A DNA stretch of 64,000 nt from Streptomyces sp. NWU339 (lineage in GTDB: Bacteria; Actinomycetota; Actinomycetes; Streptomycetales; Streptomycetaceae). The notes under the pieces are model-generated. The model did not search any database and was not told the origin of the DNA. It worked only from the letters and a program-made list of their open reading frames with translations. The position numbers were made by a program, and so were the translations under genes. Positions 19,690-21,750 of the stretch are shown in pieces. Location of the stretch: the NCBI RefSeq assembly GCF_003143855.1, contig NZ_QFRK01000003.1, positions 272,809-336,808 of the forward strand. The letters are read 5' to 3'. Position 1 is the first letter of the stretch. Every line of letters begins with the position of its first letter.

Positions 19690-20463
19690 TCAGCCCTGCC
19701 CGGGCTCGGGCTTCGTGGGCTGTCCGTCCGCCGCCTCCGGTTCCTGGGTCTCCAGGAACTGCGCCAGCATCTCGGTGACGTACCGCTCGGTGGTGGTCTT
19801 GTCGATGCCGAGGCCGCTGAGGACGCCCTCGCCGTTCTCGTGCTCCAGCAGGGCGAGCAGGAGGTGTTCGGTGCCGACGTAGTTGTGGCCGAGGCGGAGG
19901 GCCTCGCGGAAGGTGAGTTCCAGGACCTTCTTGGCCGCCGCGCCGTACGGCACCAGCTCGGGGGCCTCTTCGACGGGCGGCGGGAGCAGCGCGGCCGCGG
20001 CCTCGCGGACCGCCTCCAGGGTGGTGCCCTGCTCGGTGATCGCCTTCGCGGCCAGGCTGCCCGGCTCGGCCAGCAGGCCGAGGACCAGGTGCTCGGGCAG
20101 GCCCTCGGCGTTGCGCGCGGCCTTGGCCTCGTTGTGCGAGGCCATCACCACGTTGCGGGCGCGGGGCGTGTAGCGGTGGAAGCCCTCGTTCGGGTCGAGC
20201 GGGGCCGAGTCCTTCGTCACGAAACGCTTCTGGGCCGCCTGCCGGGTGACGCCCATGCTCTTGCCGATGTCCGTCCAGGAGGCGCCCGAGCGCCGGGCCT
20301 GGTCCACGAAGTGGCCGATCAGGTGGTCCGCCACGTCGCCGAGGTGCTCTCCCGCGAGCACCGCGTCCTGAAGCTGCCGGAGGGGCTCCTCGTGGACCTT
20401 CTTGATGGCCTCGATGAGGTCGTCGAGGCGTACGGATGACTTGATGCCGGGGTTCGTCGTCAT
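19690..20463 (-). CDS. HTH/Clp-N domain regulator-like protein
   Basis: 257 residues. Residues about 45-72 hold a helix-turn-helix, SWTDIGKSMGVTRQAAQ. They are followed by two Clp N-terminal repeats (about 75-145 and 165-240), with RARNVVMASHNEA and GTEHLLLALLEHE as typical segments. There is no AAA+ ATPase domain, so this is not a Clp chaperone. Clp N-domains bind substrates, adaptors or phosphoarginine in ClpC; here one may act as the sensor of a DNA-binding protein. The promoter (20470-20498) is covered by two palindromes, suggesting self-regulation. The message should be leaderless. The gene diverges from a DUF2786 gene. Confidence 0.85.
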   Translation of the reverse strand: MTTNPGIKSSVRLDDLIEAIKKVHEEPLRQLQDAVLAGEHLGDVADHLIGHFVDQARRSGASWTDIGKSMGVTRQAAQKRFVTKDSAPLDPNEGFHRYTPRARNVVMASHNEAKAARNAEGLPEHLVLGLLAEPGSLAAKAITEQGTTLEAVREAAAALLPPPVEEAPELVPYGAAAKKVLELTFREALRLGHNYVGTEHLLLALLEHENGEGVLSGLGIDKTTTERYVTEMLAQFLETQEPEAADGQPTKPEPGQG

Positions 20464-20464
20464 G

Positions 20465-20511
20465 TGTCAACCGTAGGTTGACAGTAAGGGGGTGTCAACC
20501 ATGAGTTGACA
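20465..20511. promoter_or_regulatory. Two 19-bp palindromic operators
   Basis: Site 1, TGTCAACCGTAGGTTGACA at 20465-20483, has perfect 8-bp arms around GTA and covers the -10 element. Site 2, TGTCAACCATGAGTTGACA at 20493-20511, has 7-bp arms and covers the -35. The centres are 28 bp apart. A bound protein would block the HTH/Clp-N promoter; the gene's own product is the natural candidate. The divergent DUF2786 gene starts 58 bases beyond site 2. Confidence 0.75.
20470..20498 (-). promoter_or_regulatory. Leaderless promoter of the HTH/Clp-N gene
   Basis: On the minus strand TTGACA (20498-20493) is followed by a 17-base spacer and TACGGT (20475-20470). Six bases later comes the ATG at 20463. 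This is a near-ideal housekeeping promoter with transcription starting at the start codon. Confidence 0.75.
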
Positions 20512-20568
20512 GACGGATGCGTCAGGTCAGGGGTCCGGCGGGGAGAGGGGGCATGGCACGATCGACCC

Positions 20569-21750
20569 GTGAGCACGTCCAGTACCGTCGACCGCGCCTT
20601 CCGGGCAGCCCTGTACGCCACCACCGACGACGCCCTCGACACCGGCGCGTCCCTGCTCGCCTCCGATCCGGCGGCGGACGCCGAACTCGCGGGGCGGGGC
20701 GAGGAGTTCGTGGCGACGGCCTGGCGGCGCGGCTGGCAGCCCGCCGACGTCGTACGGATCGTCCGGCGCGAACTGGACGACGTGCACGTACGGCTGGCCT
20801 CGGAGCTGATCCGCGCGCAGGCGCCGCACGACCGGCCCCGCGGCCCCCGCTGGCACGCCCAGCTCGGCGATCTCGGCGGTCGTCTCGGCGACCGCGAGGC
20901 CGCTGCCGCGCGGCGCGCCGACCGCTTCTCGCACGCCACCGCCGTACTGGAGCTGTACCGGCTGCTGCTGCGCCTGCCCGCCCTCGAACCCCTCGACGAG
21001 CCCGACGGGGGCGCGGCGGGAAGCGAAAGAGCCGGGGGTGCGGGCTCACCCGCGCGGGAACGGCACCCGGAGTCCCGCATGCTGGGCCGCATCCGCGCCC
21101 TGCTGGCCAAGGCGGAGGCGACCGGGTTCCCGGAGGAGGCGGAGGCCCTCACCGCCAAGGCGCAGGAGCTGATGGCACGGCACAGTGTCGACGAGGCGCT
21201 GCTCGCGGTGCGGGCCCCCTCGGCGACGGCTCCGGGAGCGTGCCGGATCGGGGTGGAGCCGCCGTACGAGCAGACCAAGGCCGTGCTGCTGGACGCGATC
21301 GCCACCGCGAATCACTGCCGGGCCGTGTGGAACGAGGCCCTCGGCTTCTCCACGGTGGTCGGCTTCGCCTCCGACCTGGAGGCGGTCGAACTCCTCCACA
21401 CCTCACTGCTCGTGCAGGCCGGTACGGCCATGGCGAAGGCGGAGGCGGCTCAGCGGGCCGGGGGACGCAAGCGGACCAAGACCTTCCGGCAGTCCTTCCT
21501 CGCGGCGTACGTCCACCGTGTGGGCGCGCGTCTCGCGGCTGCCGCCGAGAGCCAGCTGACGGACGACTCGCTCCCGGTGCTCGCCTCCCGCGACGTCGCG
21601 GTCACCGAGCGGCTGGACCGCCTGTTCCCGGAGACGACGACCACCCGGCTGCGCGGGGTGAGCGACGCGGCGGGGTGGGAGGAGGGCGCGCGGGCGGCGG
21701 ACGACGCCCAGGTCGAAGCGCGCGGACGGCTTCCCGGCCGGCGTCCCTGA
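20569..21750 (+). CDS. DUF2786 domain protein
   Basis: 393 residues from GTG. The recognisable part is DUF2786 (about residues 165-210), with MLGRIRALLAKAEATGFPEE and LTAKAQELMARHSVDEALL. This domain occurs with putative metallopeptidase or nucleic-acid-related proteins, but its role is unknown. The N-terminal 120 residues and C-terminal 170 are mostly helical and lack an obvious catalytic motif. The GTG follows CACGAT (20557-20562) by six bases, so the message is probably leaderless. It diverges from the HTH/Clp-N gene and may share its operators. Confidence 0.75.
   Translation: MSTSSTVDRAFRAALYATTDDALDTGASLLASDPAADAELAGRGEEFVATAWRRGWQPADVVRIVRRELDDVHVRLASELIRAQAPHDRPRGPRWHAQLGDLGGRLGDREAAAARRADRFSHATAVLELYRLLLRLPALEPLDEPDGGAAGSERAGGAGSPARERHPESRMLGRIRALLAKAEATGFPEEAEALTAKAQELMARHSVDEALLAVRAPSATAPGACRIGVEPPYEQTKAVLLDAIATANHCRAVWNEALGFSTVVGFASDLEAVELLHTSLLVQAGTAMAKAEAAQRAGGRKRTKTFRQSFLAAYVHRVGARLAAAAESQLTDDSLPVLASRDVAVTERLDRLFPETTTTRLRGVSDAAGWEEGARAADDAQVEARGRLPGRRP

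Follow-up and report, generated by a model that had tools for sequence, protein, structure and literature searches.

The window (the whole 64,000-nt stretch of DNA that was analysed) carries a gene that looks like the streptomycete clpC2, judged by sequence to be the orthologue of mycobacterial clpC2. By analogy with mycobacteria, it very probably encodes an autorepressor that captures a ligand, is released from its own promoter and then serves as a decoy. Three ClpC2 structures jointly span nearly the whole window protein: 9p2p matches residues 86-245 (E 2e-68), 8ad9 matches at E 1.2e-40, and 8ada_A (N-terminal domain of Mtb Rv2667, residues 4-72) matches residues 10-72 (E 1.1e-27). In Pfam, Clp_N was the sole family found at E <= 0.1, in two stretches (E 1.7e-23). 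An AAA+ domain, two modules of which are typical of ClpC/ClpB unfoldases, was absent at the same threshold, and the NCBIfam matches fell far under their cut-offs. A decayed ClpC was ruled out as its identity because the protein is conserved across 58 aligned sequences.

Pfam called no HTH in the 257-aa protein at E <= 0.1. AlphaFold models (mean pLDDT 90.8 and 84.4) were built from alignments of 58 sequences (the window and 57 of 80 relatives) and 48 sequences (the window and 47 of 80), hand-picked against redundancy. They predict helices 63-70 and 74-81 as an HTH, in which Q75, A76, Q78 and R80 are invariant in 58/58 aligned ClpC2 sequences. A profile of the ClpC2 N-domain matches a family of stand-alone HTH proteins (described below) over residues 41-82 with 97.4% probability and 45% identity; one relative in that family gives sub-threshold Pfam HTH matches. 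The RelI antitoxin matches ClpC2 residues 35-85 (E 7.6e-4). Searches with the N-domain model gave nothing significant in Foldseek (best E 0.57) and nothing over Z 4.3 in VIA-align. Their rows include many HTH DNA-binding proteins (Fis, Lrp-like, immunity repressor), which lend weak support to an HTH fold, and also unrelated ones (methyltransferases, a storage protein). The initial annotation, made from the sequence alone, had described an HTH protein with two Clp-N repeats and no ATPase; this architecture holds, with the HTH as a prediction from the models, the profile and the RelI match.

Table 1. Features of the clpC2 region (positions in the window; SEQ tokens stand for operator sequences)
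Feature	Position	Strand	Basis
clpC2 orthologue (putative), 257 aa: N-terminal HTH and ClpC1-N-like double Clp-N, AAA+ module absent	19690..20463	-	ORF, Pfam, PDB matches
Double Clp-N, codons 95-236, ClpC1 N-domain-like; putative ligand sensor and decoy	19756..20181	-	Pfam, PDB matches
Predicted HTH, codons 63-81 (helices 63-70, 74-81), putative DNA reader	20221..20277	-	AlphaFold, conservation, profile match
Proximal operator (predicted) TGTCAACCGTAGGTTGACA, 1 nt before ATG, covers -10	20465..20483		Exact motif match
-10 hexamer TACGGT, 6 nt ahead of A of ATG, leaderless (expected)	20470..20475	-	Read from sequence
-35 hexamer TTGACA	20493..20498	-	Read from sequence
Distal operator (predicted) TGTCAACCATGAGTTGACA, 28 nt upstream, contains -35	20493..20511		Exact motif match
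Divergent DUF2786 gene, DUF7168 match too; start codon chosen by analyst	20569-21750	+	Pfam

Both palindromes are exact copies of YGTCAAC-N5-GTTGACR with a start-to-start distance of 28 nt, and the -35 and -10 hexamers are separated by 17 nt (20492-20476). Coordinates and sequence thus confirm the two 19-bp palindromes that had been noted over a leaderless promoter (TTGACA, 17, TACGGT). Since the -10 hexamer sits 6 nt from the ATG, the transcript is expected to be leaderless, and transcription should start at or adjoining the ATG at 20463. A consensus scan for promoters and terminators across 20380-20640 found none; it missed the clpC2 promoter because TACGGT fits TATAAT at 3/6 bases and the scan needs four. 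Within the window and the 9.4-Mb genome, the exact motif occurs at the two clpC2 palindromes and nowhere else, so release would mainly induce ClpC2 itself. With one mismatch allowed there are nine near-matches in the genome, and with up to two there are 124 places per strand, against 67 for a reversed control pattern. A wider regulon is unsupported, the exact motif being confined to two places at clpC2; weak further targets among the mismatched places are possible.

Operator conservation and the proposed mechanism

A search of genome contigs gave at least 571 relatives, of which the best 80 were analysed, so that counts out of 80 describe the closest relatives. They belong to Streptomyces, Kitasatospora, Saccharopolyspora, Actinomadura, Micromonospora, Mycobacterium, Nocardia, Amycolatopsis, Nonomuraea and other genera; the closest named ones are Streptomyces, at 86% identity and lower. 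With a threshold of 11 matching bases out of 14 per site, the operator pair stands ahead of clpC2 in 80/80 of these best relatives, and no orthologue lacking upstream palindromes, the observation that the initial annotation had named as counter-evidence, was met among them. The start-to-start spacing is 28 nt in 57, 29 nt in 21 and 30 nt in two, and the ATG lies 1 nt past the proximal site in 70/80 and 2 nt past it in 10/80. TAnnnT is found at the -10 place in 79/80 (L026 is the exception). Control segments from the loci of the same 80 relatives gave the pair in 0/3513 and a single site in 57; the operator pair at clpC2 loci is far beyond chance. It was also present at 29/29 more loci from the same genus (L100-L128, which may overlap the 80; L099 is the window).

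Genomes counted here as same-genus were taken as Streptomyces from the closest named relatives. A search of streptomycetes for the motif beside Clp-N genes had been suggested at the outset. The exact double n5 motif occurs in 40/121 same-genus genomes, once in each, and all 40 copies adjoin a ClpC2 N-domain match (adjacency judged by eye); reversing the pattern as a control gave 0. The N-domain itself is matched at E <= 1.1e-34 in 97/121 genomes (counted by eye), the next E-values being 4e-13. Fourteen of the 57 genomes with an N-domain match and no exact double motif were looked at, and an imperfect operator pair was seen in 14/14. Among plasmids, 18/72,556 records match ClpC2, five of them across at least 80% of the protein. 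One of 50,697 phage records matches the ClpC2 HTH: a hypothetical protein of Arthrobacter phage PeggyLeg03 (OQ995425.1 25819-25914) aligns with HTH residues 52-83 (62.5%, E 2e-6).

Mycobacterial ClpC2 has been shown experimentally to repress its own promoter (Taylor et al., 2023; PMC10030653). Its operator, CGTCAAC-n5-GTTGACG, lies 1-2 nt ahead of the ORF, is repeated in many species and overlaps -35/-10, and the promoter position suggests leaderless transcripts (PMC10030653). Cyclomarin A releases ClpC2 from DNA and raises clpC2 mRNA 263-fold, and the released protein sequesters cyclomarin and shields ClpC1 (PMC10030653). The legend of Fig. 4b in that paper, which gives the operator species, names no Streptomyces. 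Self-regulation through both palindromes, as first proposed for the window gene, is strongly supported by this feature-for-feature match. Because Taylor et al. showed ClpC2 autorepression in mycobacteria, the main inference of the initial annotation (self-regulation with Clp-N sensing) is already published for the ClpC2 family.

We infer that the streptomycete ClpC2 acts like the mycobacterial one and that it reads the DNA sequence through its HTH; the natural ligand named for it below is likewise a proposal. A ClpC2 dimer would read TGTCAAC-N5-GTTGACA through the N-terminal HTH and, by occupying both operators over the leaderless promoter, would keep its own gene off. The Clp-N domain would capture a ligand that otherwise attacks ClpC1, such as a cyclomarin-like cyclic peptide or possibly an unfolded protein. 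Ligand-bound ClpC2 would then leave the DNA, be made in excess and act as a decoy for ClpC1. Two of the three cyclomarin-contact residues (Mtb F96, F172 and E181) are kept in the window protein as F95 and E182, and F172 is replaced by Y173; among 58 aligned sequences this position is F in 35 and Y in 23. The ClpC1 of the same genome has F80 where ClpC2 has Y173. Since both Mtb ClpC2 and the genome's own ClpC1 have F, the ligand preference may differ, and cyclomarin may not be the best ligand. According to a 2026 study (PMC12913811), binding of ClpC2 by an ilamycin and an ecumicin analogue does not trigger the response.

The ligand could instead signal proteotoxic stress, with unfolded or phosphoarginine-marked proteins rather than antibiotics occupying Clp-N and freeing ClpC2 from DNA. 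We regard this as unlikely to be the main role. Presence in 97 of the 121 genomes is wider than expected if the protein answered just one antibiotic, and in mycobacteria heat shock induces clpC2 about twofold and surplus ClpC2 slows casein degradation by ClpC1P (PMC10030653). Set against this, the response to heat is small beside the 263-fold effect of cyclomarin A, and self-induction is more in keeping with a sponge than with a stress regulon. The initial proposal that ClpC2 senses damaged or marked proteins therefore stands in part: ligand-driven release through Clp-N is known (cyclomarin A in mycobacteria), and damaged proteins are a possible signal. Phosphoarginine is unreported as a clpC2 inducer in the available text of PMC10030653. 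The preferred reading remains that of an antibiotic-responsive autorepressor and decoy.

Split operons and other relatives

Stand-alone HTH genes surfaced from the ClpC2 N-domain search. At L147 a palindrome pair lies directly ahead of the in-frame ATG of such a gene, and Clp-N is encoded by a separate gene behind it. With this HTH protein as query, a match (E <= 1e-8) was found in 163/199 same-genus genomes and none in the window's own genome. The best 30 split loci (L153-L182) consist of an HTH gene of 69-80 aa and then a gene for Clp-N only. Spacers of 3 to 6 were tried in scanning them for operators. The pair GTCAAY-N4-RTTGAC was found at 30/30, with 22 to 24 of 24 bases matched; the n5 motif gave no pairs at these loci, the spacer being n4. 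The pair spacing is 27 nt at 22 loci, 28 nt at six and 29 nt at two, and the HTH ATG lies 2-4 nt past the proximal site (4 nt at L159). In 29/30 loci the Clp-N frame begins at, or a few bases from, the HTH stop, often with a 1-base overlap (TGATG); L157 has no Clp-N frame, and one Clp-N frame is cut by a contig end. At the ClpC1 cyclomarin-contact positions, the split Clp-N proteins have F at F2 in 28/28, F at F80 in 27/28 and E at E89 in 21/28.

The exact n4 double motif occurs in 88/121 same-genus genomes, with 0 for the reversed control. There are 91 such double sites in all; among the 75 listed, 72 adjoin a stand-alone HTH match. In genome G119 the site is followed by an HTH-like start together with a Clp-N open frame. 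Across these listings n5 is the spacer of the fused ClpC2 and n4 that of the split form. The other two listed sites are those of L183 and L184. At L183 (minus strand) an n4 pair lies 3 nt ahead of a 203-aa DUF998 gene (1163-555, E 1.4e-36) with no HTH gene; it is possibly a second target or the site of another regulator. At L184 a seemingly broken stand-alone HTH gene retains an exact n4 operator pair.

Other fused relatives show further operator variants. Family B (L129-L133) comprises five HTH/Clp-N proteins of 233-234 aa, with Pfam Clp_N in the three tested; each gene is preceded by a CGTCAAN-n5-NTTGACG pair, spaced 28 nt and lying 1 nt ahead of the ATG. Seven others were found (L134-L140), and the four of them run against Pfam gave Clp_N. 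Six (L135-L140, 232-246 aa) carry the pair GGCAAN-n5-NTTGAC / GTCAAN-n5-CTTGCY 2-3 nt ahead of the ATG, spaced 28 nt in five and 29 nt in one when the long inverted repeat is taken as two sites; L134 has no operator pair ahead of the gene. The fusion at L141 (1002-1910, plus strand, 302 aa) joins an HTH, a Clp-N stretch (1.1e-15) and a C4 zinc finger of the ClpX type (8.5e-15), with two GACAAC-n5-GTTGTC palindromes upstream. Among 199 same-genus genomes (E <= 1e-25) it was found in its own source alone, and in 0/396 genomes of a phylum sample (E <= 1e-20). In both searches 5-11 candidates were scored per genome where shown, and the empty answer from the phylum sample carries no weight, so the fusion need not be rare.

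A tentative but serious possibility is that ClpC2 is one of a set of modular actinobacterial surveillance repressors. Each would combine an HTH with a Clp-unfoldase docking domain, either fused or in an operon, and the docking domain would be the ClpC N-domain, in one case together with a ClpX-type zinc finger. Variant double operators on leaderless promoters (GTCAAC-n5-GTTGAC, GTCAAY-n4-RTTGAC, GKCAAN-n5-NTTGMY and GACAAC-n5-GTTGTC) would be chosen by the HTH and its residue 74, and binding of a protease-targeting antibiotic would release the repressor as a decoy. In the literature on ClpC2 and Clp N-domains, of which few subscription journals were covered, no published account was found of the split operon, of the variant operators or of the covariation at residue 74.

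The DNA-reading domain

Sequence comparison and the predicted structure point to the N-terminal HTH as the DNA reader of ClpC2. Taylor et al. propose instead that the C-terminal domain binds DNA through R185 and R189, the N-domain merely dimerising (PMC10030653). In mycobacteria R185A/R189A weakened binding in EMSA and raised clpC2 mRNA 2.0-fold (PMC10030653), and the equivalent residues, R186 and R190, are both kept in 57/58 aligned sequences. The C-terminal domain may therefore still contribute to DNA binding. That the R186/R190 helix of Clp-N mainly reads the operator is nevertheless quite improbable in our judgement. At 30/30 of the best split loci, the gene behind the same half-sites encodes an HTH protein that itself lacks Clp-N (a separate Clp-N protein adjoins 29 of them and could help). 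Family B keeps n5 operators and yet has D (four proteins) or E (one) at R190, as aligned by eye, and ClpC1 too has the first arginine. The Mtb ClpC2 crystal structures span residues 4-72 and 94-252 (PMC10030653), and the second helix of the predicted HTH (74-81) therefore falls outside both. R57A has been described as a dimer mutant of Mtb ClpC2 (Taylor et al., PMC10030653). This residue belongs to helix 44-58, adjacent to the HTH, so the substitution might affect DNA reading in addition to dimerisation.

In the AlphaFold models the second HTH helix begins with residue 74, which varies with the outer operator base. The base was called as the majority of the four outer bases in each operator pair. 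In 108 fused proteins we counted 63 with R and T:A, 37 with K and C:G, six with R and mixed bases, two with R and C:G and 0 with K and T:A. The tree (the window, its 80 relatives and 27/29 of L100-L128) was a quick one made from the C-terminal part alone, and on it residue 74 changes 10 times. It gives one independent R/K74 pair on well-supported branches and nine on the best tree. With one well-supported independent pair, common descent may explain the covariation and a sign test cannot reach significance. The paralogues agree: K goes with C:G in all five of L129-L133, and in the six proteins L135-L140 R goes with T:A beside the inner half-sites. The split HTH proteins have R at the equivalent position in 20/20 aligned (hand-picked from the 30) and mixed outer operator bases, and thus do not fit a strict residue-74 rule.

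Neighbouring genes and known systems

Homologues of the neighbouring genes were searched in flanks of about 3 kb (3/80 were shorter than 2.9 kb). DUF2786 has a homologue at 19/80 loci of the best relatives (tblastn E <= 1e-10, fetched flanks), more than 600 nt from clpC2 at six of those 19. For the gene downstream of clpC2, which encodes a bifunctional exonuclease/DNA polymerase (NF011538), a homologue was found at 21/80. Neither gene tracks the operators. The palindromes are very improbably shared with the divergent DUF2786 gene as a two-gene regulon: its start lies just 57 nt past the distal operator, but in the fetched flanks the homologue was found at a minority of operator loci and at some of these lies far from clpC2, and no promoter-like site for it was seen in 20380-20640 (by the scan that also missed the clpC2 promoter). 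The initial suggestion of co-control is thus unsupported, and it was dropped from the finding on the 19/80 count. Beyond the window, the same genome has a full-length ClpC1-like gene (contig C52, 341293; 869-aa frame) about 48 kb from clpC2.

Tuberculosis drugs are directed at ClpC1, and against at least one class of them ClpC2 provides an inducible shield. Some streptomycetes produce ClpC1-targeting peptides. The streptomycete circuit and the split operon with its shifted operator offer a direct way of searching for natural Clp N-domain ligands with promoter reporters. The DNA-reading domain of ClpC2 can now be put to the test, as the published C-terminal proposal and the comparative evidence given here disagree.

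Mycobacterial ClpC2 (Rv2667; 8ADA, 8AD9; PMC10030653) is one of the closest known systems. It has the same two domains with the ATPase absent, and the same double n5 operator over -35/-10 of a leaderless promoter, with the ATG 1-2 nt past the proximal site. The two differ in the outer operator base (T:A in the window, C:G in mycobacteria), in residue 74 (R in the window, K in the mycobacterial relatives compared) and in the window's Y173 for the cyclomarin-contact F172 of Mtb; function is predicted for the window protein. The N-terminal domain of ClpC1 is likewise a Clp-N double repeat; chains of Mtb ClpC1 match the window protein with E-values of about 1e-23 to 1e-26, and the equivalents of ClpC1 F2 and E89 are kept. 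Unlike ClpC1, the window protein lacks AAA+ modules and has an HTH in front. The RelI antitoxin (Rv2664; PMC13284704) shares the HTH that matches window residues 35-85. Using HHpred, its authors noted that RelI partly resembles ClpC2 in an HTH region, so the naming of that region as HTH already precedes this analysis. In contrast to ClpC2, RelI is a toxin-antitoxin partner with no Clp-N domain, for which the available text of PMC13284704 reports no evidence of DNA binding and no upstream inverted repeats.

Two unlike Streptomyces proteins are called ClpC2, and the common name may mislead. The other one, a Clp-ATPase, has a Clp N-domain. It shares the name with the protein described here and drives degradation together with ClpP1P2, according to the available text of PMC9765437.
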